From: Gordius sp. MW1
Taxonomy: Eukaryota; Nematomorpha; Gordioida; Gordea; Gordiidae
DNA length: 64,000 nt
Reading direction: 5' to 3'
Assembly (NCBI GenBank): GCA_964036665.1
Contig: OZ038526.1
Coordinates: forward strand, 11,718,001 to 11,782,000
Shown here: positions 602 to 62,760 of the stretch, piece after piece
Layout of the letters: each line of letters starts with the position of its first letter
Position numbering within the stretch: position 1 is the stretch's first letter
Notes under the pieces: model-generated
What the model was told of the DNA's origin: nothing
Seen by the model: only the letters and a program-made list of their open reading frames with translations
The model's database searches: none
Made by a program: the position numbers and the translations under genes

Positions 602-3600
602 CTAAATTGCATGCAACATTAATAAGGGCGTTAAGTGTAGTCTTGTCAATGATTAAATTCGATCATTAACAAAAACGAGGGCCTTTGGCCCTCGTGGGAA
701 GGGGGAGAAGGGAAGGGAAGAGGGGAAGGGAAGAGGGAAGGGAAGGGGGGACGACTCATCTGTACTTCGTATAAATGTATCATATTTGCTATGCAATTTA
801 TGGGCGAGAAAGGTGGGAAGGGGCGAGAATGCCTATAGGGGGGTATTAAATGCCTAATGATTAATTAATTATTTATACAAATTTTCCATTATAGGCAAAA
901 TGTAATAAAGGCAAAATGTAATATAGGCAAGGGTGAGGGTTAGATTTAGTGTTTGCATCTAGTTGCGTATTACATTAGTTTTTATGGCCTTTAGTGATTA
1001 TGGGTCTAACAAACATTATATTATAAAACAACACAATGTTAAGAATTTGCAGAATTGTTGGGAGAAATTTTTTGTTGAATTTGAACAATTTTTAATTAAA
1101 AAATCAAAAATTTGGCCAATGGTCACTTTTTCTCTATTGGTCAGTACCAACAGATACTCTATAAGTCAATGATAGCCAAAAAAACGGAAAAAAAAATTTT
1201 GATGCTCACTTTGGCCAATGGTCATTTTTTTCCATTGGTCAGCAGCCAGCACACGGTAAAAGTGGATATAAATTCATAAGAGTAAAAAAAACGAAAAAAA
1301 AATTTTCGAATTACATTTTGGCCAATGGTCATTTTTTTCCATTGGTCAGCAGCCAGGACACGGTAAAAGTGGATATAAATTCATAATAGTCAAAAAAAAA
1401 CGAAATTTTGGCCAATGGTCATTTTATTCCATTGGTCAGCAGCCAGCGGACGGCCAAAAAGTCATAATAGCAATGGTAGGAACAGGAACAATCATAATAG
1501 TCAAAAAAAACGAAAAAAATAATTTCGATTCACATTTTGGCCAATGGTCATTTTTTCAATCGGTCAGGAGCCAGCGGACGGCCAAAAAGTCATAATAGCA
1601 ATGGTAGTAACAGGAACAATCATAATAGTCAAAAAAAAACGGAAAAAAAAACTCGGATTCACATTTTGGCCAATGGTCATTTTTTTCATTGGTCAGCAGC
1701 CAACGGACGGCCAAAAAGTCTTATTATCAATGATAGTAACAAGAACAATCATAAGAGTCAAAGAAACTCCGGGATTCTAACCCAAAAACTAGTTAAATTG
1801 CATAGCAATTAAAAGTAAACAACTTTTATTTATGTTTATTATATAACATTGGTCAGCAGCCAGCGGACGGCCAAAAAGTCATAATAGCAATGGTAGAAAC
1901 AGGAACAATCATAATAGTCAAAAAAAAATGAAAAAAATAATTTCGATTCACATTTTGGCCAATGGTCATTTTTTTCATTGGTCAGCAGCCAGCGGACGGC
2001 CAAAAATTCTTATCAATGATAGTAACAAGAACAATCATAAGAGTCAAAAAAACTCCGGGATTCTAACCCCAAAACTAGTTAAATTGCATAGCAATTAAAA
2101 AGTAAACAACTTTTATTTTTGTTTATTATATAACTAGTTAAATTGCATAGCATTAAAAGTAAACAACTTTTATCTATGTTTATTATATAACAAAAACTAG
2201 TTAAATTAGCAATTAAAAGTAAACAACTTTTATTTATGTTTATTATATAACTAGTTAAATTGCATAGCAATTAAAAGTAAACAACTTTTATTTATGTTTA
2301 TATAATAGATAATTTAACAAATCTTATATATAACACACCGAGGGAGATAGAGATGAGGGGTGGGGCACCTCTTATGCATTAATTCAAAAAATAACACAGC
2401 GAGGGAGATAGAGATGAGGGGTGGGGCACCTCTTTCTCATGCATTAATTTAAAAAAGCGATAACCTAATATACCCAATGCAAATAGATAGGGATGGACGG
2501 ACGGACGGACAGACGGACGGACGGACGGACAACAAAAAACGAGCCCATAAATTGCATAGCAATTAAAAGTCTAATATCAAATTTTTTGATAGTAATTACT
2601 ATATAAAATATGATAAATCTAAATTTAATTATAAAATAGATCCTTGATCTTAAGTTTTAAAGAGAAGTGTATATTGTGAAACGGTACCTTGAGCATAAAA
2701 CTCTCTATTCACATATATTCCAACCATGTAAATGGGAAAGATCGTGTTGATACCTGAAGTGCGCAATAACCTATAATAAATAAGGTATCGTAAATTTGGA
2801 GGTAAAAGACTTAGTGATCCATTAAGACTTTTTCTAAAATAATTAAATATTTAACAAATTATGCTTCCTTTCGGTTATAATATTAATTTGTGGAATGTAA
2901 AAAATTCATCTATTTGCCAGAGTCAATATGCCCTCAGATATTTATGCCATTTTAATATTAGCATTATATTTATTGAATATATCTTAAATTTCGCCAAATA
3001 TAATATGTAAAACTATAAGCAACGTCAAAAATTATATTTTGCTCTGAATTTAGCAATTAAAAAGATGCTAACCTACAATAAATCTTAATTCTAAAGATAC
3101 TTGCAGATATTAATATAATCAAATTTAAAATGTAATTTTTTAGTTATAATAAATAACAAACATATAATAATAAATTAAAAATAACTCGGTTGACAATTTG
3201 TACAAGCAAAAAAATAAGTTACCTTACCACTACTACAAGTATATCATTGGGATATTTTTTACACGATAATTTAAATTTGTATTATCCTTATAGATTAAGT
3301 TTGCATACAATAAATTGACAAAAATTGCAATCTTATATTTGTTTATAAACAATTTATCTAACTAGATAATCTCCTACATTGTTTAACCTAAAAAGCGCTT
3401 TTATACAACTTTAATGTGGAATATGCCAAAATATATAATATTCATAGCCAAGTTGTGATATTAGATTTGGTAAGCATTTTTCCGAAAAAAACTACCTCTC
3501 CAGACCACAATTGTAATAAAGAGTAAGGTGCTCTATCTAGGAAATGGCAAATATTACTAAAAAAAACTCCACAAGTATATCATTGACTAAAAATTATATG

Positions 3601-6600: not shown

Positions 6601-9600
6601 TTTATTTGATTGTATATGAAAATGCTAAAAGAGTTAAGGAACTTGATTTCGCCATCCATCCCCAAAGTTATTTTTATATTTTTTGCCCGAACCACTCTAT
6701 TTTCATCAAGTCCCTATCCCTAGCTACGTTCATGAAAATGATTGAAAATTTTTATTTATGTAGCCCTTTAATTGTTCGTAATTCTATATATAATACAAAA
6801 GCGTCATGCCCAAATTGACACAATGCATGCAAGTGTTAAATTTCATTTTAATATTATTTAATTTTTGTAACAAATCTTAGTTGACTTCCCCAATACGCCT
6901 TTATTATTCCCTTATTTTTGGTGCTATCGCTAAGCTATGACTTATTTTTATAAAATTTCTATTCTTTTTTCTTTTTTCGCTTTAAATTAAAAATTTTTTC
7001 CATAAATTACATTTAATTCTATTGATAAATTATTGTTTTTTTTTATCAAGAAAATAAGTTGACTAAATGAACTAATTTAATTAATTGAGAAGTCGATTTA
7101 TAGGGGAGGGGCTTAAACGGGTAATCCAAAAGAGGCAAAAACTTGTTTATTGTATGATTATTTTAAAATATGTATACATTAAACTTAATTGAAAAATTGC
7201 TGCATAAATATTTTCATGGATCAACTGCTATTTAATATTTTGCTGTTATATGATTTGTAAACGTTTTAACATCTTTGTATCTAAATGCACAATTAGTATA
7301 TTAAATATTGTGAGCTAGAGCGGTTTTGCCAGTGATAACAATATTTTAAAGAAACTTTGATCAAATATTTTAGAAAGACCAAATACGACGTTTTTTTGAC
7401 GTATTAGGATTAAAATTAAAGATCAAAAATTATTTGGGAAAATCATTCGACTTTTAAATAATATAGGAAATTAGATTTTGTCCGGGATAAGATAATAAAA
7501 TATTGCTATATTTATTTATTTATTTATTCAATATGTCATTAATTTAATGTTTATTTTTTAATAGTAGTTGAAAGAATTTGAGATCGCAAAATTTCGGGCC
7601 TAACAGGCAAATTTAATATTTCGGGTCAAGCATTTCGGGCAGCTTTAATGTTTCGGGCGGGCTCGAGGGGGGGGGCAATGTAGTTAAAAAATTGGACCGG
7701 GCCGGGTTCGGCCATAAAATTCCAAACAAATATGACCTCTGATTTTAAGTATAACATATAGTTTACTACACATGTTATGTTACCCACGTTGCAATTTGGA
7801 GATATATGCCAAAAAATATTTAGCTCCCCCGTCTATATTAATTGCTATGCAATTTATGGGATCACTTTCCATTTTGTTTGTCCGCCTATTCGGCGTCCGC
7901 TATTCGGCGTCCGCACCGAACGTGGATGTCACGCACCGAATGTCTTGTTTTGTTTACTTTTAATTTTTGTTAATTTAACCAGTTTTTGGGTTCGAATCCG
8001 GAGTTTTTTTTGACTCTTATGATTGTTCTTGTTACTACCATTGATAATAAGACTTTTTGGCCGTCCGTTGGGTGCTGACCAATGAAAAAAATGACCATTG
8101 GCCAAAATGTGAATCCAAGTTTATTTTTTCGTTTTTTTTCGACTATTATGATTGTTCCTGTTACTACCATTGATAATAAGACTTTTTGGCCGTCCGTTGG
8201 CTGCTGACCAATGGAAAAAAATGACCATTAGCCAAAATGTGAATCCAAGTTCATTTTTTCGTTTTTTTTCGACTATTATGATTGTTCCTGTTACTACCAT
8301 TGATAATAAGACTTTTTGGCCGTCCGTTGGCTGCTGACCGATGGAAAAAATGACCATTTGCCAAAATGTGAATCCAAGTTTATTTTTTCGTTTTTTTCGA
8401 CCATTATGATTGTTCTTGTTACTACCATTGATAATAAGACGTTTTGGCCGTCCGTTGGGTGCTGACCAATGGAAAAAATGACCATTGGCCAAAATGTGAA
8501 TCCAAAGTTTATTTTTTCGTTTTTTTTCGACTATTATGATTGTTCTTGTTACTACCATTGCTATTATGACTTTTTGGCCGTCCGTTGGGTGCTGACCAAT
8601 GAAAAAAATGACCATTGGCCAAAATGTGAATCCAAGTTTATTTTTTCGTTTTTTTTTCGCCTATTACGATTGTTCCTGTTACTACCATTGATAATAAGAC
8701 TTTTTGGCCGTCCGTTGGCTGCTGACCGATGGAAAAAATGACCATTGGCCAAAATGTGAATCCAAGTTTATTTTTTCGTTTTTTTTCGACCATTATGATT
8801 GTTCTTGTTACTACCATTGATAATAAGACGTTTTGGCCGTCCGTTGGGTGCTGACCAATGGAAAAAATGACCATTGGCCAAAATGTGAATCCAAGTTTAT
8901 TTTTTCGTTTTTTTTCGACTATTATGATTGTTCTTGTTACTACCATTGCTATTATGACCTTTTGGCAGTCCGTTGGGTGCTGACCCATGAAAAAAATGAC
9001 CATTGGTCAAAATGTGAATCGAAAATTTTTCTTTCTTTTTTTTTGCTAACATTGATTTATAGACCATCTGTTGGTACTGACCAATTAAAAAAAATGACCA
9101 TTGGCCAAAATGTGATTCGAAAATTTTTTTTTCGTTTTTTTTTTTGACTCTTATGATTGTTCTTGTTACTATCATTGATAATAAGACTTTTTGGCCGTCC
9201 GTTGGGTGCTGACCAATGAAAAAAATGACCATTGGCCAAAATGTGAATCCAAGTTTATTTTTTCGTTTTTTTTCGACTATTATGATTGTTCCTGTTACTA
9301 CCATTGCTATTATGACTTTTTGGCCGTCCGTTGGCTGCTGACCAATGGAAAAAAATGACCATTGGCCAAAATGTGAATCCAAGTTTATTTTTTCGTTTTT
9401 TTTCGCCTATTATGATTGTTCCTGTTACTACCATTGATAATAAGACTTTTTGGCCGTCCGTTGGCTGCTGACCGATGGAAAAAATGAAAATTGGCCAAAA
9501 TGTGAATCCAAGTTTATTTTTTCGTTTTTTCCGACTATTATGATTGTTCTTGTTACTACCATTGCTATTATGACTTTTTGGCTGTCCGTTGGGTGCTGAC

Positions 9601-12600
9601 CAATGAAAAAAATGACCATTGGTCAAAATGTGAATCGAAATTTTTTTTTATTTTTTTTTCGCTAACATTGATTTATAGACCATCTGTTGGTACTGACCAA
9701 TTAAAAAAATGACCATTGGCCAAAATGTGAATCCAAGTTTATTTTTTCGTTTTTTTTCGACTATTATGATTGTTCCTGTTACTACCATTGCTATTATGAC
9801 TTTTTGGCCGTCCGTTGGCTGCTGACCAATGGAAAAAAATGACCATTGGCCAAAATGTGAATCCAAGTTTATTTTTTCGTTTTTTTTCGCCTATTATGAT
9901 TGTTCCTGTTACTACCATTGATAATAAGACTTTTTGGCCGTCCGTCGGCTGCTGACCGATGGAAAAAATGACCATTGGCCAAAATGTAAATCCAAGTTTA
10001 TTTTTCGTTTTTTTTCGACTATTATGATTGTTCTTGTTACTACCATTGCTTTTATGACTTTTTGACCATCTGTTGGTACTGACCAATTAAAAAAAATGAC
10101 CATTGGCCAAAATGTGATTCGAAAATTTTTTTTTCGTTTTTTTTGACTATTATGAATTTATAACCACTTTTACCCTAACCCTGGCTGCTCGCCCTATAGG
10201 CATTCTCGCCCCTTTATACCTTTCTCGCCCATAAATTGCATAGCAAATATGCTACATTTATACGTAGAATAGATGAGTCGTCCCCTCTTCCCTTCCCCCC
10301 CCCCCCTTCCATTCTCCCCCTTCTCCGGGGGTCTGGTGGCGGAGCCCCCAGGAGATGGGGGTTTGGGGGCGTAGCCCCCAACGGCAACGGGGGTTTGGGG
10401 GCAGAGCCCCCAACGGGGGACTGGGGGAGCAGGGGGTTTGGGGGCGAAGCCCCCAAGGGGGTCTGGGGGCGAAGCCCCCAAGGGGGTCTGGGGGCGAAGC
10501 CCCCAGTTACACCCGAAGGGCGTATTTTTGTAAGGAAACGCTGCTCCGCAAGCACGTGTCCCCGTTAGTGGTGGGAAAAACCTTAGGTGGGGCGGACCCG
10601 AGGTTCGCCCAAGGTCAGGTTTTAGGTTAGGTTGTTTGAAAACCTCGAGGTTTTAAACCAACCTAACCTTAAACCTATTAGGTTTAGCATAGGGTTCCCC
10701 AACGTCCCAAATTTAAATTTTGGGGCAAGATTCAAACTCTAGACCAAAACATTAGGTCGGAACGAAATGCAAAACCCCGAGAAACCCCAAGGTCAGGTCA
10801 CCTTGAGTTTCCATTCATAAGGTATGGTTTTTATATCCTAATATTTCGGCTGAATGACGGTCACTAAGCAATTTTATAAATAAATTCTTAATTTTATCAT
10901 TTGTTTTGATTTAAAAAATAAATTAAAATAATATTGTATCCTAATATCAATATATAAAATAATAATATCAAATAAATACTCTACTATATTGAAATAATAA
11001 ATGGAAATGTATTATATCGGTTTTGGCCATCTATAAACTATTTTAATTTAGATTAACACATTATATCCTTATCTTATACCACGCATGTAGTAGTAGCACA
11101 GCACCATACCATATAACTCCCCCCCCCCCTTCTCTTTCCCTTCTCACACAACCCAGCGTATAATGCGAGCATGGGGATACCCTTGCTCCAAAATATTAAT
11201 AATATTATGTTCTTGTTAATACCATTGATAATTTGACTTTTTGACCGTCCGCTGGCTACTAATCGATGAAATATATTGATTTTCTAAACATAAAACAGAA
11301 CTTTACTATTTTATTATCTATATAAATAACATAATAACTTCTCCTATTTTAATACCGGATGGTGTGACGGGTTATAGCGCACGGCTTGTAAACAGGGTGA
11401 CCTGGATGTCCCTGGTTCAAGCTCGGGAGAGGGCAAAATTTTTATTTTGTTCTTGTTAATATCATTGATAATATGACTTTTTGATCGTCCGCAGGCTACT
11501 GACCAATAGAAAAAATGACCATTGGCCAAATAAATCGAAATTTTTTTTCGTTTTTGAATTGGTTAACATTGATAATTACCCTATGCCCTTCCCTACAAGG
11601 GTCTATAACTAATTATTTTGCATTTAATACCCCCCTATAGGCATTCTCGCCCTTCCTACCTTTCTCGCCCATAAATTGCATAGCAAATATGCTACGTTTA
11701 TACGGAGTATAGAGGAGTCGCCCCCCCCCCTTCTTCCCTTCCCCCCCTTCCCTTCCCCTACTCCCCTTCCCACGAGGGCCGAAGGCCCGAGTTTTAATTT
11801 TATACTTATTGATGATATCTTCGCAAATATTGGCATTTTTATTAGATGTTTTTATGTTTTAAATTCAAAGTCTAAAAGAGAGACAACTTGATGGCGACAA
11901 TATATTGTTAAAACTTAAAAAATAACCAATATGTAAAAATTTAATTGTTTACTACCTTCCGATAATCGGTTACGGCTTAATATTTATTTACCTAAGAACT
12001 TATTAATGTCATTTTTGATGATAATAGTGATTTTAGAGTTTTCTAATTTTTTCCTGTATAATCATTTTATCATTAATGCATGTTTTTTATATTATTCAAA
12101 CCTTCTTTTAATAAAAAAACATTTGCTTTTTATATTTCTACTAACTGTTTGGTCTCCATTACAAAAATATTACAAAAATAAAACATGTCATTTTGATTTT
12201 TATTCATTTTCTTAGTGTTTGGTAAATTGCATATAAATTTAAAATTAGTATTTATAATTAAATTAATTTTTATACAAACCTATAAGAGGCTTTAATAAAC
12301 TTATATTTAAAATTTGAGACGTGTTACTCTATTGGTTTTAAAATTATGATCATTTTAAGGATGGGGTCCTACAAACCCCATAAGTCACTTCAGGGTTGGG
12401 ATTTCTATAAGTACATTGGAGGGTTAAATTAAGGGAAAATATCCAGGTAAAATCTAAATTAGCTAATTCATCTAAACGCCATGTAAGTAATGTTTATTCA
12501 CTCTTAACTACTGCATAGCTTATGCATAGCTTGTAGCAGCACAGCACGCACTCTCCCCTACTCCTCCCTCCCTAACTTATGCATATGGATATGTATGCTA

Positions 12601-15600: not shown

Positions 15601-18220
15601 GTATGGCAACATATGTCATAAGTTTAAATTTAGGAAATTCTTTAATATGGTACAACATTGAACACTAATTAAAACTCGGGGCTTCGGCCCTCGTGGGAAG
15701 GGGGAGAAGGGAAGGGAAGAGGGGAAGGGAAGGGGGGACGACTCATCTGTACTTCGTATAAATGTATCATATTTGCTATGCAATTTATGGGCGAGAAAGG
15801 TGGGAAGGGGCGAGAATGCCTATAGGGGGGTATTAAATGCCTAATGATTAATTAATTATTTATACAAATTTTCCATTTATAGGCAAAATGTAATATAGGC
15901 AAGGGTTAGATTTAGTGTTTGCATCTAGTTGCGTATTACATTAGTTTTTATGGCCTGTGATTATGGGTCTAACAAACATTATATTATAAAACATCACAAT
16001 GTTAAGAATTTACAGAATTGTTGGGAGAAATTTTTTGTTGAATTTGAACAATTTTTAATTAAAAAAATCAAAAATTTGGCCAATGGTCATTTTTTCTCTA
16101 TTGGTCAGTACCAACAGATACTCTATAAGTCAATGATAGCCAAAAAAACGGAAAAAAAAATTTTGATGCTCACTTTGGCCAATGGTCATTTTTTACCATT
16201 GGTCAGCAGCCAGCACACGGTAAAATTGGATATAAATTCATAAGAGTAAAAAAAACGAAAAAAAAATTTTCGAATCACATTTTGGCCAATGGTCATTTTT
16301 TTCCATTGGTCAGCAGCCAGGACACGGTAAAAGTGGATATAAATTCATAATAGTCAAAAAAAAAACGAAAAAAAAGTTTTCGAATCACATTTTGGCCAAT
16401 GGTCATTTTATTCCATTGGTCAGCAGCCAGCGGACGGCCAAAAAGTCATAATAGCAATGGTAGGAACAGGAACAATCATAATGGTCAAAAAAAACGAAAA
16501 AAATAATTTCGATTCACATTTTGGCCAATGGTCATTTTTTCCATCGGTCAGGAGCCAGCGGACGGCCAAAAAGTCTTATTATCAATGATAGTAACAAGAA
16601 CAATCATAAGAGTCAAAAAACTCCGGGATTCTAACCCAAAAACTAGTTAAATTGCATAGCAATTAAAAGTAAACAACTTTTATTTATGTTTATTGTATAA
16701 TAATTTAACGTAGCAATTAAAACCCGACCCCGCCCGAAAGCGAGGGAGATAGAGATGAGGGGTGGGGCACCTGTTTCTCATGCATTAATTTAAAAAATCG
16801 ATAACTTAATATACCCAATGCAAATAGATAGGGAGGGTAGACAACGGACGACGGACAACCAAAAAACGAGCCCATAAATTGCATAACAATTAAAATTTAT
16901 TTAAACTAAATAGTATTAAAAAGTAAGGTGATGGGGAGAAAGAGGGGACCTGAACTTTATAAACTCAAAATTCTAGGCATGTCACCCAAAACAAGGAATT
17001 TAATTGATGGTTGAGGTTAATATAAAACTAATAATTAAATTTTAAAAAATGTTCAAAAAAGTGATGGAATAAACAAAAATAATAATGTGTCCTATATATA
17101 TATATATATGTTAAATTAAATGAGACAATTTTTTTCCTAAACCAAATAAAAACTCTACATTTTTTGTAAAAATTAATAAATTTAAGATAGATGGAATACT
17201 TAAATAACTTTTTGATATAATTTAAAACTTTTGGGCCAAAATTTTTATATGCACATAAGGTTTTAAGCTACCTTATTCATATCTTCATGTAATGGAAAGA
17301 ATTTAGTTTTTGTATTTTCAACTGAAATGATAGCACCAATAAATGTTAGCAAGGTTTCAGAGAGAATTTCAGAAGAAGGTGGGTATGTCTATAAATTTAG
17401 TTATTATAAAAAAATAAATAATACAGATGAAAGAATAAGATCTTTCATTCCTAAAAGGGTAGCTATATTTGCAAGATTTTTGTATGACAAGATATTATTT
17501 TTGATATCACTAAATAAAATGTTTAAAAATATAATTCTATTTACCTGATGGCTTCTTCTGGTAAAAGTGGAAAACTTTTGCGCAGATATTGCTTCACAAA
17601 TAAATCAACAAAATTTTGTCCTTTTAATAAAAGCAAATAACTTATTGTGTATATTTATAATTCTATAAGATGTTTTATAATAAAATAATAGTAGAAAATT
17701 AAATTTATAAATTTATTTGTCTTTATAAGTTGCCTCATTTAAACATATTATTTACCTAAGTCAAATTTTTTATAGTAAGTGTCTTTATCAGATTTCCCCA
17801 TAGATTTAATTATATCCTCATTTGAGGGATGCATAAATACTGGTGCCAAATCATCAAAGGTTAAGCCTTCGTTAACACGGTGTATAAAAGCATTGATTTC
17901 GGTCTTTATATTCCTTAAAAAATATATAAAAAATTATGATAATTTTACCAATTGTATAAAGAATATCTAGGAACAATTTCTTGTGGGCCTGCTAAATCTT
18001 TGTTACGCTTGAGATAGTACAAAAGTTGTGGAAACCAGTAGGCACGTCCACCATAGCGTTTACCTTGGGTAATGCAATATTAATAATTAATTTGTACTTG
18101 TATAATATAAATCTTGACTAAGAGCAGTAAAAAGCTTTGAGCACCTCTGCAAGCCCATGTGTTTTCAATATGTATGCATGTTTGCCCAAAGAGGCCTGAC
18201 ATATGTTTTCTAAATTGCAT
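321..18220 (-). CDS. MRPL44: mitochondrial ribosomal protein mL44, nine-exon gene
   Basis: Structural protein of the large mitoribosomal subunit, nuclear-encoded and imported into mitochondria. Exons in order: 18220-18145, 18063-17949, 17913-17756, 17620-17545, 17509-17425, 17388-17272, 4422-4202, 2770-2688, 601-321. All introns are GT-AG and every junction keeps phase, giving about 403 residues. An RNase III-like domain spans roughly residues 64-260 (YNWNIKTEINAFIHR near its start, LLTFIGAI in its middle, FELWNLTNAF near its end). A dsRNA-binding domain follows at roughly 272-335 (LLRTSGINTIFPIYMVGIY, then GSGETLSLAIDQAARQGL). This order and these motifs match the mL44 family as I know it (human protein about 330 residues). 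About 68 extra residues follow the dsRBD. Intron lengths are 81, 35, 135, 35, 36, 12849, 1431 and 2086 nt; two of the three long ones hold transposons. Exons 2-9 are firm; exon 1 is tentative. No exon carries a stop or frameshift, so the gene looks intact. Confidence 0.85.
1095..2060 (+). repeat. tandem core repeats of copy 1
   Basis: Degenerate head-to-tail monomers of about 85-130 bp, each with GGCCAATGG-loop-CCATTGGTC, a potential 9-bp stem hairpin. Early units are short; later ones add the CGGACGGCCAAAAAG and AACAGGAACAATCATAATAG segments. Reading frames through these units are by-products of the repeat. Confidence 0.8.
2070..2315 (+). repeat. AT-rich tandem block
   Basis: Four near-identical units of about 55-60 bp containing ACTAGTTAAATTGCATAGCA and AAAGTAAACAACTTTTAT. 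Each carries a piece of the GCATAGCAATT subterminal motif, suggesting the block arose by amplification of the element's own end. Confidence 0.7.
2338..2462 (+). repeat. duplicated GAGGGAGATAGAGATGAGGGG unit
   Basis: Two direct copies of a unit of about 60 bp starting GAGGGAGATAGAGATGAGG and ending at GCATTAATT. The same unit recurs once at 16740 and twice at 35528-35600, always just before the GGAC run or its relic in composite elements. Confidence 0.7.
2492..2531 (+). repeat. GGAC (ACGG) tetranucleotide microsatellite
   Basis: About ten units of GGAC with one AGAC variant, directly before the terminal subterminal repeat. Pearl elements of bivalves are known for an ACGG-type tetranucleotide run in this position. 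Confidence 0.8.
2688..2770 (-). CDS. MRPL44: MRPL44 exon 8
   Basis: 83 nt with acceptor TTATTATAG and donor CAAG|GTACCG. Encodes the first half of the dsRBD (SGINTIFPIYMVGIYVNREF). Too short and without a start codon, so it is invisible to simple ORF calling. Confidence 0.85.
2772..4201. other. MRPL44 intron 7, AT-rich; piggyBac-family end inside
   Basis: No coding exon seen. Positions about 3590-3863 resemble the ends of the piggyBac-family copies at 24.9 kb and 48.5 kb (CCCCAAACGTTTA, then TTTTGCTAAATTATT and CAAGTATTCTCAAGG). The rest is low-complexity AT-rich sequence. Confidence 0.5.
4202..4422 (-). CDS. MRPL44: MRPL44 exon 7
   Basis: Acceptor ATTACTAG, strong donor CG|GTAAGT; 73 codons plus two bases. 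Encodes the end of the RNase III-like domain (AAAFTLDFICTQL, FELWNLTNAFRLF) and the linker EAVSIEA, which joins exon 8 to form the R-L-L-R-x-S-G start of the dsRBD. Confidence 0.85.
4980..5932. mobile_element. non-autonomous hAT element with perfect 8-bp TSD
   Basis: Terminal inverted repeats TAGAGGTGGGCGCGGGCC and its exact complement, flanked by GTAAAAAG at 4972-4979 and 5933-5940. Ends are GC-rich with repeated GTGGGCGTGA-type words; the 700-bp interior is very AT-rich and has no transposase frame. It lies in the 12.8-kb intron of MRPL44. hAT assignment rests on the 8-bp duplication and TIR form. Confidence 0.85.
5941..6436. other. intronic AT-rich stretch
   Basis: No exon, repeat boundary or RNA gene recognised. 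Confidence 0.4.
6437..7741. mobile_element. hAT-like element with GC-rich ends
   Basis: Left end CAGAGACCAGATTGCCCGG and right end complement CAGAGGTCATATTTG form short inverted repeats. Both subterminal zones are packed with CCCGGC/GGGCCGGG words over about 120 bp, around an AT-rich interior. Flanks ATTCGAAA and ATTTTAAG match at only about half the positions, so the target duplication is decayed or the ends are misplaced by a few bases. Confidence 0.55.
7838..10330 (+). mobile_element. composite pearl/Helentron-like element, copy 4 (longest core array)
   Basis: Plus-strand orientation from TTAATTGCTATGCAATTTAT to the pyrimidine-rich CCCTTCCCC zone near 10290. The tetranucleotide block is replaced by CTATTCGGCGTCCG repeats, then about 16 core monomers, then the inner subterminal motif CGCCCATAAATTGCATAGCA at 10227. 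The expected GGGCC terminal hairpin is absent and a GC-rich palindrome array starts there instead. No protein is encoded. Confidence 0.65.
8010..10160 (-). repeat. 129-bp core satellite, about 16 monomers
   Basis: Head-to-tail monomers of 128-130 bp. Each contains a GACCAATGG-loop-CCATTGGCC hairpin, a TTTTTTCGTTTTTTTTCGAC tract and a GTTACTACCATTG segment. Variant monomers recur in ordered blocks: a GACCGATGG form near 8335, 8730, 9470 and 9955, and an ATCTGTTGGTACTGACC form near 9065, 9680 and 10070. This is partial higher-order structure from block duplication. Confidence 0.85.
10325..10515. repeat. GC cluster of tandem palindromes
   Basis: Six to seven units of about 25-35 bp of the type GGGGGCGAAGCCCCCAAG, each a perfect or near-perfect 6-7 bp stem with a short loop. 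GC content is far above the surroundings. Open frames across it follow from the lack of A/T stop codons and are not genes. Confidence 0.8.
10560..11195 (+). repeat. left arm of long inverted repeat
   Basis: About 630 bp that matches the reverse complement of 12728-13290 with scattered differences and a short indel. Landmarks shared by both arms: AAAACCTCGAGGTTTTAAA, ATATTTCGGCTGAATGACGG, and CAGCGTATAATGCGAGCATG beside a C/G homopolymer. Confidence 0.8.
11197..11795 (+). mobile_element. composite element, copy 6 (short form with tRNA-like insert)
   Basis: Plus-strand orientation. Two core units (GACCGTCCGCTGGCTACT and GATCGTCCGCAGGCTACT) surround a tRNA-like sequence, followed by the inner subterminal motif at 11670 and the terminal hairpin GGGCCGAAGGCCC with GAGTTTT at 11781-11795. 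The left terminus is missing; the element abuts the inverted-repeat arm. Confidence 0.6.
11352..11436 (+). ncRNA. tRNA-like / Pol III promoter-like cassette
   Basis: Has A-box-like TGTGACGGGTTATAGC and B-box-like GGTTCAAGCTC about 45 nt apart, with a CTTGTAA anticodon-loop-like segment. Stems pair poorly, so a functional tRNA is unlikely. A related sequence sits at the same position in copy 3 (33950-34020), so it belongs to the repeat. Confidence 0.45.
12010..12423 (+). mobile_element. piggyBac-family 3' fragment
   Basis: Closely matches the last 380 bp of the 48517-50086 element (TTAGAGTTTTCTA, ATTTGCTTTTTATA, CTATAAGAGGCTTTAATAAA) and ends with the same terminus, ATAAGTACATTGGAGGG, followed by TTAA at 12424-12427. 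The left end is missing. Confidence 0.75.
12728..13290 (-). repeat. right arm of long inverted repeat
   Basis: Reverse-complement partner of 10560-11195; arms are about 1.5 kb apart. Outer ends also correspond (GTGGTGGGAAAAACC against GTGATGGGAAAACCC), so this may be the TIR of a large decayed DNA transposon or an inverted duplication. Confidence 0.8.
13925..14062. mobile_element. GGCGTAGCCA MITE with poly-G/poly-C arms
   Basis: Starts ATGGGCGTAGCCAAAAGGGG and ends GGCTACGCC, with AGTGCCCCCCTCTAA and TTGCCCCCCTCTAA inside. About 135 bp, no coding capacity. Related copies lie near 14480, 23945, 33235, 39443, 47345 and 59286. Confidence 0.7.
14480..14632. mobile_element. second poly-G MITE copy, degraded
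   Basis: Contains a run of about 11 G followed by CAGATGCCCCCTTCTAAATC and ends TGTCCCCCTATAATCCCAGC. Same internal order as 13925-14062 but the GGCGTAGCC termini have decayed. Confidence 0.55.
14640..15670. other. intronic AT-rich stretch
   Basis: Part of the 12.8-kb MRPL44 intron. No exon or defined repeat recognised. Confidence 0.4.
15672..16894 (-). mobile_element. composite pearl/Helentron-like element, copy 2
   Basis: Hairpin CGGGGCTTCGGCCC at the left, purine tract, subterminal motif at 15775, about five core units from 16070 to 16640, GAGGGAGATAGAGATGAGG, a short GGAC relic and terminal GCCCATAAATTGCATAACA. Nearly identical to copy 1 over the first 400 bp, implying recent common origin. 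Inserted in the same MRPL44 intron. Confidence 0.65.
16070..16640 (+). repeat. core repeats of copy 2
   Basis: Five degenerate units with the GGCCAATGG/CCATTGG hairpin, ending with the AACTCCGGGATTCTAACCC junction seen also at 1766, 2049 and 35410. Confidence 0.75.
17092..17110. repeat. TA dinucleotide run
   Basis: Short TATATA microsatellite in the large MRPL44 intron. Confidence 0.7.
17272..17388 (-). CDS. MRPL44: MRPL44 exon 6
   Basis: Thirty-nine codons in phase 0 at both ends; acceptor TTATAG, donor AAG|GTAGCT. Contains YPPSSEILSETLLTFIGAII, the best conserved core of the family. Read-through would stop two codons past the donor, so splicing to 4422 is required. The following intron is 12,849 nt. 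Confidence 0.85.
17425..17509 (-). CDS. MRPL44: MRPL44 exon 5
   Basis: Flanked by introns of 35 and 36 nt. Encodes 28 codons (SYKNLANIATLLGMKDLILS), the segment that precedes the conserved YPPSSEIL region. Confidence 0.85.
17545..17620 (-). CDS. MRPL44: MRPL44 exon 4
   Basis: Acceptor TATTAAAAG, donor CAG|GTAAAT. Encodes 24 complete codons (QNFVDLFVKQYLRK, then LLPEEAI), corresponding to the middle of the RNase III-like domain. Confidence 0.85.
17756..17913 (-). CDS. MRPL44: MRPL44 exon 3
   Basis: Acceptor TTTTTTAAG, donor G|GTAAAT. Encodes the first helices of the RNase III-like domain (TEINAFIHRVNEGLTFDDLA, then FMHPSNEDIIKS). The pairing of this segment with a short upstream intron fits the family alignment. 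Confidence 0.85.
17949..18063 (-). CDS. MRPL44: MRPL44 exon 2
   Basis: Acceptor CCCAAG, donor TG|GTAAAATT. Encodes a basic/aromatic stretch (KRYGGRAYWFPQLLYYL) and the lead-in to the RNase III-like domain. Splicing across a 35-nt intron creates the Trp of YNWN, the mL44 domain start. Confidence 0.8.
18145..18220 (-). CDS. MRPL44: MRPL44 exon 1 (tentative start)
   Basis: Open from an ATG at 18220 (second in-frame ATG at 18202), with an in-frame stop just upstream. It ends one base into a codon at a GTGCTC donor, which matches the phase of exon 2. The 25 residues have Arg/Lys/His and no acidic cluster at the start, acceptable for a mitochondrial presequence. The donor is unusual, so the true first exon could lie further upstream. 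Confidence 0.4.
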
Positions 18221-34744: not shown

Positions 34745-35430
34745 AAATTTGGCCAATGGTCATTTTTTTTCATTGGTAAGCAGCCAGGACACGGTAAAAG
34801 TGGATATAAATTTATAAGTCAAAAAAAACGAAAAAAAAAATTTTCGAATCACATTTTGGCCAATGGTCATTTTTTCCATTGGTCAGCAGCCAGGACACGG
34901 TAAAAGTGGATATAAACTTATAATAGTCAAAAAAAAACTAAAAAAAATTTTCGAATCACATTTTGGGCAATGGTCATTTTTTTCCATTGGTCAGCAGCCA
35001 GGACACGGTAAAAGTGGATATAAATTCATAATAGTCAAAAAAAACTAAAAAAATATTTTTGAATTACATTTTGGCCAATGGTCATTTTTTTCCATTGGTC
35101 AGCAGCCAGGACAGGGTAAAAGTGGATATAAATTCATAATAGTCAAAAAAAACGAGAAAAAAAAATTTCGAATCACATTTTGGCCAATGGTAATTTTTTT
35201 CCATTGGTCAGCAGCCAACGGACGGCCAAAAAGTCATAATAGCAATGGTAGTAACAGGAACAATCATAATAGTCAAAAAAAAACGAAAAAATAAACTCGG
35301 ATTCACATTTTGGCCAATGGTCATTTTTTCATTGGTCAGCAGCCAGCGGACGGCCAAAAAGTCTTATTATCAATGATAGTAACAAGAACAATCATAAGAG
35401 TCAAAAAAAACTCCGGGATTCTAACCCCAA
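34745..35430 (+). repeat. core repeats of copy 3
   Basis: Four short units with CAGCCAGGACACGGTAAAAG followed by two long units with CGGACGGCCAAAAAG, each with the CCATTGG/CCAATGG hairpin. Confidence 0.8.
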
Positions 35431-59450: not shown

Positions 59451-59984
59451 TATATGTAATATATATATAAATGGGATCTAAAGAATCCCGTTGCAGGTAG
59501 CTAATTTGGCATGCTCATGTGAAAGTCGAAGGCATGAGGGAAAATCTAAGTGTGAACATAATCATGATATAAACTTATAAGTTTAAATGAATTTCGAAAT
59601 AAAATAGCAAGTTTGATTTGATAAATGGCTTTTTAAATTTTTTGTCCTGGTGTGAAATTTAAGTTCGGCCCTCATGGGAAAATTGCTAGCTACGTCATTG
59701 CTAATCGTAGTCTATTATGCAGGATAGAAATACATGAATAAATTTCTCGGATAGCCAAATGTTTTTCTCATTAAGACATATTTATCTCTCTCCATTATTT
59801 AATGCTCCAAGAAGACCAATAGACCTTATAAAACGTTCAAGTAAATACAATATTATCATGCGTATATAAACTGCATATCAAAAATTTGTTACAGGCGCGA
59901 TTACACATGTTAAACTAACGTGGTCTTATGAGCCATTTGTCGTAAGAGAGGGTAATTAAACAGTGTACACAAACAAGCTCCTGG

Positions 59985-60180
59985 GCGGAATCCCATTCAT
60001 AATGCCAATCATCCACAATGCCAATGTCTGTATTATTTTTAAGTAATAGCTCATTATACAGTTAATTCTATTATAATGATTATATTATATCTATGTGTAC
60101 TTATTGTACTTAATATTCCCTAAGAATTATGTTCAAAATAACGACAGTTCATAATACTGACAGCCTAACATATTAGACAT
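59985..60180 (-). repeat. dispersed repeat, inverted copy of 62590-62760
   Basis: Minus strand reads TGTCAGTATTATGAACTGTC, GTTATTTTGAAC, then GGATGATTGGCATTATGAAT; the same words in the same order occur at 62600-62750 on the plus strand. Confidence 0.6.
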
Positions 60181-60199
60181 TAAATCTATAATTAAAATT

Positions 60200-60740
60200 A
60201 GCAAAAAATATATGAACATATGTTTAAACAAATAATTGTATATTATACTATACATAGAATTATATATAAGCAATTATTACATATTTAATATAATATATTA
60301 TACACTAAATTATATAATTAATAAATACAAATTATTTGGTATAGGGTGGTATATAATTAAGTGTATATAATAAAATATATGCAATTATTTAAAAGCAATT
60401 CATACATACTAAATATATTAAATACTAAATAATATAATTAGAAAATACAAATTAGTTTGTTATAGGGTAGTATATAGTTAATACAATAAAATATATGTAA
60501 TTATATAAAAGCAATTTATAAATACTTAATATATTCAATACTAGATTATATAATTAATAAATACAAGTTAGTCTGGTAAAGGGTGGTATATAATTAAGTG
60601 TATATAATAAAATATGTGTAGTAATATAAAAGCAATTTATACATACTCAATATATTAAATACTAAATTATATAATTAACTAATACACGTAGTTTGGTATA
60701 GAGTGGTGTATAATTAAGCAATATATAATAAATTTATTAT
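60200..60740. repeat. AT-rich satellite, period about 116-121 bp
   Basis: Four to five diverged units marked by TATAGGGTGGTATATAATTA-type words at 60340, 60461, 60577 and 60697. Confidence 0.75.
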
Positions 60741-61573
60741 ATAAAGGATATCGTCTGAGTGCTATCTCATGCCTTTAGATTCTTGTTTACAAGTTGATTA
60801 ATGGAATATTTAGAATGATAATTGATATTTGAGAGGATAATCTCAGCTTAAACATATAAGAGATTTGCTAAAGTTTTTTTTGTACTTTAATAGAAAACAT
60901 ATTAAATTTTTAAAGGGCAATCTCTTTAGCCATTAGATTAAATAGAAATTATACATACAATTTATGATGCTATATAACTTAATTAGATCCTTAAAGATTG
61001 TAAAGGGATCATTACTAAATATGATTAGTATCAATGTGCATGTGATTAGATAAGTTTTTGTATTTAGTTTTTGCTATTTTAAAGCAAATTTATTTATACC
61101 TGAATCACTAACTATATCTATTTTATTTTTATCCACCTCAACTAATGTTTACTTATTGATGTACTGTTATATTGATATATAAGATGATTGATGGATGAAA
61201 CTCTTACCCCAATTTTTACAATACTTACAAAAGAGCCTAGAAAAAAATGCTTTAAAATCTTGTTCTTGTTTTAAAAAGATCTAATTAGAAAATGTTATAG
61301 CTGGTTGTGAAAATCTGGTAACTATTAATAACTTTTTAAGAGTGTGAATAATTTTATTTTTTACCAAACTTAATTTCAAGAAATATAAATAAGCTTAGAC
61401 TTTATAGCATTTCAAACTTTAAACTCTTATCTCAGCCCAGTATTTTGTGCAATCTTTTGCCACAGATTTTAAATTAAAAGTTTCACATTTAACAAGTTGT
61501 ACTTTTGCAAATCCTTTAAAACTTTCATATGTCTATGCTCTATATTGCTACTTAACAACATACATTGTAGCCT

Positions 61574-61579
61574 TTTATT
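61574..61579 (-). terminator. possible poly(A) signal
   Basis: AATAAA on the minus strand about 46 nt past the proposed stop of the 62456-61625 gene. Confidence 0.35.
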
Positions 61580-61624
61580 TGGTATTTTGACTTGTCATAT
61601 ATAGGTATGAGGAGTAATACAAGA

Positions 61625-62456
61625 TTAATCCCCTTTTTTGGGCCTAAGATATTCTGGAGAAGCCACTAGGTTAATAAATATAAATTAGTTGAATCTTAGA
61701 TATAAATACATATTTTGTGAAGATAATGAAATAAATAAATAAAACTAGGTAGTATAAATATCAAAAAATACCTCTGTCCATTTGATTGGTAACATCCATA
61801 ATTTGTGGATTATCAGTAGGTATGAAAAGACTTATTTGTGTATTATGACTAGCAATCTGCTGATCTAAAAAAAGATTAGAACAAATGCAGCAATACAATA
61901 CTTTGTGGCTGTTCTTGCCTAACTAAAACTGTAGGCAGTATTCTCGGATAGTTGGTTGAAACACCTAATGACTGGCTTCTTAGTGTATTATGACTAGCAA
62001 TCTGCTGATCTAAAAAAAGATTAGAACAAATTCAGCAATACAATACTTTGTGGCTGTTCTTGCCTAACTAAAACTGTAGGCAGTATTCTCGGATAGTTGG
62101 TTGAAACACTTATTGACTGGCTTCTTAGTGTATTATGACTAGCAATCTGCTGATCTAAAAAAAGATTAGAACAAATTCAGCAATACAATACTTTGTGGCT
62201 GTTCTTGCCTAACTAAAACTGTAGGCAGTATTCTTGGATAGTTGGTTGAAACACCTAATGACTGGCTTCTTAGTGTATTATGACTAGCAATCTGCTGATC
62301 TAAAAAAAGATTAGAACAAATGCAGCAATACATTGTGGCTGTCCCTGCACAATTAAGGCTCGAAGCAGCAGTTGATTAGATGCAGAGATAGATGGGTGAT
62401 CATTCTCGCCTATATAATATAAATTTGAAAATAAATGAAATTGCACTTGTAGGCAT
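61625..62456 (-). CDS. unknown gene with tandemly duplicated exons
   Basis: Proposed exons: 62456-62447, 62409-62332, 62299-62192, 62154-62047, 62009-61902, 61864-61772, 61665-61625. All introns are GT-AG; five are 32-37 nt. Phases agree throughout (each internal exon starts with two bases of a codon and ends with one). Three internal exons are near-identical, 108 nt each, encoding a 36-residue unit with QQIASHNTLRSQSLGVSTN and LPTVLVRQEQPQ. The upstream exon (SISASNQLLLRALIVQGQPQ) looks like a diverged relative, and the downstream exon starts identically (QQIASHNT) then differs. Product about 180 residues, Gln/Asn/Ser-rich, no recognised domain. The first and last exons are least certain. 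Function unknown. Confidence 0.5.
61841..62330 (-). repeat. 145-bp tandem repeat = one exon plus one intron per unit
   Basis: TATTATGACTAGCAATCTGC recurs at 61841, 61986, 62131 and 62276, exactly 145 bp apart, with very few differences among the three full units. Each unit is 108 nt of open frame plus a 37-nt GT-AG intron with a CTAAT branch-point-like word and a T7 tract. Confidence 0.9.
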
Positions 62457-62589
62457 GAATAATAAATGAAAATATTGATTGCACTTTGTGATATGGTAAA
62501 ATTTTAAAATAAACGTTAAAATCAACGTTATAATGATTGGTTGTTTACTTAAGATATGTGACATATTATATAAATTTCGATTGCGAAAT

Positions 62590-62760
62590 TGTCTATGAAT
62601 TTGATTGGTTGTCAGTATTATGAACGGTCGTTATTTTGAACAGAAGCGTTCCCTAACCCTAGCCCTAACCCTTTATTTTGATTGGTTAAGCCATTGGCGG
62701 TCTAAAGCATTGGCATTATGGACGATTGGCATTTTGAACAGAAGCGTCTGGGCGTCTTAG
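62590..62760 (+). repeat. dispersed repeat with telomere-like CCCTAA words
   Basis: TATTTTGAACAGAAGCGT occurs twice (62635 and 62733) around CCCTAACCCTAGCCCTAACCC. It lies between the two divergent genes and is an inverted match to 59985-60180. Three CCCTAA-type units are too few to call a telomere. Confidence 0.6.

Follow-up and report, generated by a model that had tools for sequence, protein, structure and literature searches.

The tandem array at 61841-62456 of the window (the whole 64,000-bp stretch of Gordius sp. DNA analysed here) probably codes, with a likelihood of roughly three in four, for the N-terminal part of a FLYWCH-MULE (Phantom-like Mutator) transposase; the element that carries it in the window would be a short non-autonomous derivative. 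Each repeat unit would consist of a phase-1 exon followed by a near-minimal intron. With exons whose length is divisible by three and introns that would be spliced out, unequal exchange or slippage could add or delete units and leave the reading frame intact. The array would therefore act as a coding minisatellite hidden behind splicing, every unit adding 36 (or 37) residues to a tail located ahead of the DNA-binding zinc finger. With its zinc finger broken and no transposase domain found, the window copy probably makes no working protein and may be a passenger mobilised by a transposase supplied in trans.

A dispersed transposon around the array

The earlier note on this DNA had implied that the array belongs to a host gene. 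It is instead part of a dispersed DNA transposon, as indicated by its copies, their common ends and their target duplications. With 61841-62456 as the query, at least 62 matches were obtained in the genome (211.8 Mb, 12 contigs), on the eight large contigs C1 to C8; the best 40 of 83 candidates were scored, and several of the matches are pieces of one copy. When 7 kb of the window were compared with the 20 fetched loci, considering matches of 150 bp or more among those listed per locus, homology started at 62648-62650 in 18 loci and stopped at 60119-60124 in 17. Read inward, the ends of the sister copies are CGCTTCTGTTCAAAATAACGAC and GAATCATGTTCAAAATAACGAC, and their outermost six bases are asymmetric (CGCTTC and GAATCA). 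A perfect 8-bp target duplication flanks 11 of the 19 copies whose ends were set, including the window copy with TTAGGGAA; the eight others are devoid of it and, in at least one of these (L028), an end was wrongly set. The window element thus displays two features of Mutator-like elements, i.e. terminal inverted repeats and a target duplication whose length lies in the range of this class (8-10 bp). A stand-alone satellite is ruled out since the array is only one part of a bounded element (Table 1).

Table 1. Features of the window element and of the gene model that it carries (window positions)
Feature	Position	Strand	Basis
Non-autonomous FLYWCH-MULE (Phantom-like Mutator) transposon, 2,525 bp (best reading)	60124..62648	-	homology limits, ends, target duplication
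8-bp target site duplication, 5' side, TTAGGGAA on minus strand	62649..62656		perfect pair
8-bp target site duplication, 3' side, TTAGGGAA on minus strand	60116..60123		perfect pair
Terminal inverted repeat arm, 5' end of gene strand	62598..62645		48 nt, 88% complementary to 60127-60174
Terminal inverted repeat arm, 3' end of gene strand	60127..60174		pairs with 62598-62645
AT-rich tandem array of about 120 bp, 3' half of element	60291..60745		tandem-repeat search
Predicted start codon and 10-nt first exon (62456-62447), 37-nt intron (62446-62410)	62410..62456	-	sister copies built alike
Predicted exon 2 (78 nt, 62409-62332) and 32-nt intron (62331-62300)	62300..62409	-	window model
Predicted unit 1: 108-nt exon (62299-62192) and 37-nt intron (62191-62155)	62155..62299	-	window model
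Predicted unit 2: 108-nt exon (62154-62047) and 37-nt intron (62046-62010)	62010..62154	-	window model
Predicted unit 3: 108-nt exon (62009-61902) and 37-nt intron (61901-61865)	61865..62009	-	window model
Predicted last partial unit exon (93 nt, 61864-61772) and 106-nt intron (61771-61666)	61666..61864	-	intron position common to L039
FLYWCH zinc-finger exon remnant; premature stop codon ends at 61625	61572..61665	-	sister-copy domain start matches PF04500

A second element (59988-62746) encloses the window element. Their outer motifs are alike (CGCTTC ... GATTC) and their inner ends are different. The enclosing element is flanked by a near-perfect 8-bp duplication (CGCCCAGA at 62747-62754 and CGCCCAGG at 59980-59987, minus strand). 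Within it, a telomere-like GGGTTAGGGCTAGGGTTAGGG (minus strand), located at 62651-62671, lies at the insertion site of the window element. Furthermore, related tandem arrays with periods of 107-130 bp are found at four other places of the window (1178-1766, 8003-10155, 16142-16620 and 34748-35410) and have a common CCAATGGTCATTTTTT..CCATTGGTCAGC core on either strand.

Predicted exon-plus-intron units in the window and in sister copies

Tandem-repeat analysis (TRF) delimits an array at 61831-62332 (period 145, 3.5 copies, 97% matches). The array and the surrounding gene model are read on the minus strand, with all junctions in phase 1. According to predicted splicing, the model extends from an ATG at 62456 to a stop ending at 61625 (181 codons) and includes exons of 10, 78, 108, 108, 108 and 93 nt followed by the FLYWCH-remnant exon, separated by introns of 37, 32, 37, 37, 37 and 106 nt. 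The three unit introns read GTATTG...TTTTTTTAG and are of GT-AG type. The intron preceding the first unit is 32 nt long in the window versus 37 nt in the 17 sister copies that have the same unit type. This model bears out the proposal of the earlier note that the repeat comprises three complete 145-bp units, each made of a 108-nt exon and a 37-nt GT-AG intron. It also recovers the diverged flanking pieces (the first two exons on one side and the partial unit on the other) and the phase neutrality that had been proposed, all junctions being in phase 1 and the exon length a multiple of three.

Taken by itself, the exon/intron reading of one unit is weak because 37 of 400 dinucleotide shuffles of one type A unit also pass a strict test (frame-neutral GT-AG intron, pyrimidine-rich intron end and open exon). 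Comparison with other copies and with the relative L039 (see below) lifts the reading of the array above chance. As for the length of the introns, the conserved host gene RPA2 (L010:8848-9901, minus strand; the locus lacks its 5' part) contains introns of 67, 39, 70, 90 and 138 nt, the 39-nt one with an in-frame stop. The spliced RPA2 protein aligns to residues 5-242 of the 245 residues of RPA32 (chain 9mj5_B; E 3.2e-48), and a 60-residue piece of it gives E 6.4e-12 against RPA32. This 39-nt intron makes the splicing of 37-nt introns plausible; RPA2 gives no direct support for introns of 31 nt.

We parsed 21 copies (the 20 fetched loci and the window), the differences being between transposon copies of one assembly and not between alleles. 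The number of full unit exons is 2 in L022 to L025, 3 in the window, L010, L021 and L026, 4 in ten copies, 6 in L017, 7 in L027 and 8 in L028. The expected change in copy number, i.e. 2 to 8 full unit exons among these copies, is thus found, and the near-identity of units that had been pointed out fits a recent spread (0.2-1.4% pairwise substitutions per site depending on the region, 11-12 copies). Type A unit exons are 108 nt long (53 exons), except for some of 97, 99, 106 or 107 nt in L017, L020, L021, L022 and L024. In L026 to L028, which carry type B, 18 of 18 unit exons measure 111 nt, one unit whose acceptor is mutated being counted among them. The 21 introns of this type measure 34 nt in 7 cases, 35 nt in 10 and 36 nt in 4. 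The exon class thus changed by 3 nt and the intron by single bases, which is what a coding sequence and an intron should show, but the changes in type B intron length sit in T runs that are prone to slippage.

The pattern used by the unit parser demanded GT-like starts and AG-like ends and is therefore unable to show splice-site conservation; it accepted the mutated acceptor of L027 (AT for AG). Joined units in L017 and L019 were resolved by a second parse, which shifted the last-exon donor by some bases in several copies and overlooked the first unit intron in the window copy as well as the last intron in L025. Frame breaks were checked separately from the parser and the window model was recomputed exactly.

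Type A unit exons show 30 synonymous, 75 non-synonymous and 2 stop changes for an opportunity of 75:227:19, and they evolve nearly neutrally. Moreover, divergence is lowest in the long intron (0.16% versus 0.22-1.4% elsewhere, pairwise, 11-12 copies), indicating that the exons show no extra constraint. The spliced frame is broken in all 21 copies, 14 of which have in common a 5-nt loss at the last unit junction. In the window copy, it meets a premature stop within the zinc-finger exon. An open FLYWCH stretch is missing from the window copy, L010, L022 and L024, a stop lies inside a unit in L026, L027 loses the frame after the array, and the first exon was not found in L028 during copy parsing. 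The FLYWCH exon is open up to the region of the second cysteine in 15 of the 21 copies. Protein-level selection in the family of the window element is therefore unsupported, whether by substitution counts, regional divergence or frame breaks.

Link to FLYWCH-MULE transposases and arrays of other genes

In the better-kept copies, reading on past the array leads to a FLYWCH zinc finger. The match to PF04500 spans profile positions 1-41 of 62 for a typed composite of two sister copies (E 7.4e-6, 26.5 bits for a cut-off of 23.6), and a second composite, longer and partly mistyped, falls just below this cut-off (23.2 bits versus 23.6). We searched the genome for the FLYWCH exon (best 150 of 295 candidates scored) and for the MULE domain PF10551 (at least 128 matches, best 150 of 202 candidates scored). 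For 50 of the 150 scored FLYWCH matches, one of the 128 MULE matches listed is located downstream on the same strand, at a distance between start coordinates of 627-711 nt in 49 pairs and 1,520 nt in one. Shifted lists give a mean of 0.13 pairs and a maximum of 2. The FLYWCH exon is thus that of a family of FLYWCH-MULE transposase genes. No PF10551 match was found inside the window among the matches listed (150 of 202 candidates scored), as expected for a non-autonomous element. The best reading of the window element is thus that of a FLYWCH-MULE transposon (Phantom-like Mutator) in the form of a non-autonomous derivative.

Ten of the scored FLYWCH matches lie within about 250 kb (G000:C3:18964723-19213762), and for nine of these the open frame spans 153-307 residues; they possibly represent locally clustered MULEs or a family of derived genes. 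The mitochondrial COX1 profile also gives 23 matches outside the mitochondrial contig (on C1, C3, C4, C5 and C8), one of which, at C8:2829490, is nearly full length. Code tables 4, 5 and 9 leave the COX1 of the 14.8-kb mitochondrial contig free of stops for 526 codons, against only 350 with the vertebrate table, which makes a non-vertebrate animal likely as the host.

A relative located at C7:12973300-12975600 (L039) carries an array with a period of 94 and 14.8 copies. Downstream of this array lie a FLYWCH exon with 67% protein identity and, further on, a stop-free MULE match. The L039 model includes at least 19 exons, i.e. exons of 52, 69, 14 times 63, 39 and 60 nt and then the FLYWCH exon, with introns of 48, 14 times 31, 38, 77 and 35 nt, all in phase 1; the fourteen 63-nt exons with their 31-nt introns are near-identical. 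An open spliced frame runs through 18 exons and on into a full-length FLYWCH domain, which covers 62 of 62 profile positions (E 1.8e-8, obtained on an abbreviated protein). The MULE match lies 663 nt beyond FLYWCH, the transposase being represented there by a profile match. Since the L039 unit fails the strict single-unit test, its intron end being less pyrimidine-rich, the case of L039 rests on this long open spliced frame.

Homology links the 5' leader and the FLYWCH exon of L039 to those of the window-type element, neither score being reached by any of 300 shuffles, and the intron directly before the FLYWCH exon interrupts the same codon in L039 (35 nt) and in the window (106 nt). With regard to a Pack-MULE, whose interior is a captured host gene fragment, leader, intron position and FLYWCH exon are common to the window-type element and to its FLYWCH-MULE relative. 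No homology is detectable between the unit exons of the two types, as 12 and 40 of 300 DNA shuffles and 268 of 500 protein shuffles reach the observed scores. On the basis of these alignments, the two related genes carry different arrays of like build in the same place.

A third MULE gene (L021:3897-4675, minus strand; PF10551, E 2.4e-16) is preceded by an array with a period of 104 and 7.5 copies. This array has splice-like sites delimiting a 34-nt intron-like and a 70-nt exon-like stretch. Since 70 is not a multiple of three, it is not frame-preserving, which suggests that simple expansion of a minisatellite may be enough to create an array spanning splice junctions, the frame being maintained only if the protein depends on it. 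A 43-bp AT-rich array adjoins this 104-bp array. Besides, L024:1-290 (plus strand) contains units of frame-neutral build (a 60-nt exon-like and a 35-37-nt intron-like stretch) ahead of an AT-rich array, the gene to which they would belong being cut off by the locus edge.

The out-of-frame array of L021 would also suit a non-coding minisatellite within the transposon, whose exon/intron reading would be accidental and from which nothing would be spliced, as would the shuffled units that pass the strict test, the failure of the L039 unit, a few unrelated arrays in the examined sequence that also pass, the nearly neutral substitution pattern of type A and the presence of a second, AT-rich, tandem array in the window element. 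We consider such an accident unlikely, given that the two exon length classes (108 and 111 nt) are exactly 3 nt apart, that a single frame runs through 18 exons of L039 into a complete zinc finger and that the position of the intron upstream of FLYWCH is common to L039 and the window.

Possible role of the arrays and comparison with known systems

The presence of arrays without detectable homology at the same place in two related genes could also mean that the introns themselves are selected, many short introns near the promoter raising transposase expression or marking the transcript as host-like and so sparing it the silencing of intronless elements. This would agree with the block of HUSH silencing by introns, reported for human cells and mostly RNA-derived elements (PMC8770142). 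However, drift of a frame-neutral minisatellite accounts for the same anatomy, and we hold selection on the introns to be improbable. It is likewise improbable that one lineage of Mutator transposons builds time and again, at a constant place of its transposase gene, unrelated phase-neutral arrays of exons and minimal introns that are kept since introns in a row near the promoter shield the transcript from silencing or tune its output. The local anatomy alone could be read as one host gene whose coding exon array is polymorphic; this is hardly credible and is ruled out by the dispersed copies (at least 62 matches on C1 to C8) with their common transposon ends and target duplications, the frame being furthermore broken in the window copy.

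The assignment of the window element to Phantom-like transposons within the FLYWCH-MULE family is the best reading of its target duplication, its inverted ends and the order FLYWCH-MULE. Phantom transposons are described as encoding a FLYWCH finger and then a MULE transposase (PMC3169594, PMC6446971). Here, the N-terminal FLYWCH finger is present in the sister-copy composite, complete in L039 and broken in the window copy. As far as they are described, members of the Phantom group, i.e. Tm1 of root-knot nematodes and Muta1 and Muta5 of Aedes aegypti, resemble the window element by their 8-10-bp target duplications, their inverted ends, with asymmetric outermost motifs in Tm1, and their many non-autonomous derivatives (PMC3169594, PMC5225508, PMC6446971). 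The transposases of Muta1 and Muta5 are reported to have 2 and 3 exons, respectively (PMC5225508), whereas the L039 model has at least 19. In these two elements, tandem repeats are described in the terminal repeats, whereas exon-plus-intron units are found here in the N-terminal coding part. In the account of PMC6446971, aphid Phantom carries a minisatellite after the transposase ORF and Rehavkus a C-terminal one; both associate a minisatellite with a Mutator-type gene as the window-type element does, but in the latter the array is upstream and its units have splice sites.

Variation in protein length through the number of coding tandem repeats is a property that the arrays described here would have in common with LPA kringle IV type 2, going by the descriptions available for the latter. 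The LPA kringle IV type 2 repeat unit contains both exons and introns. Its units are 5.6 kb long and belong to a single host gene, whereas those found here are 94-146 bp long and belong to a transposon gene. Exons copied in tandem are also described in host genes, where the duplications are tied, in the account given, to mutually exclusive splicing (PMC9013439), whereas the units found here are all readable in series. Judging by titles and the beginnings of abstracts, we recognised no published precedent of exon-plus-intron arrays in a transposase gene.

The front end of a transposase gene is thus apparently a minisatellite of spliceable modules, which would provide a route for fast coding growth or shrinkage without frameshift. 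Moreover, near-identical 31-nt introns in series would stringently test splice-site pairing at near-minimal length. If the arrays are selected, they would also bear on the use of introns by DNA transposons to evade the surveillance of intronless elements.
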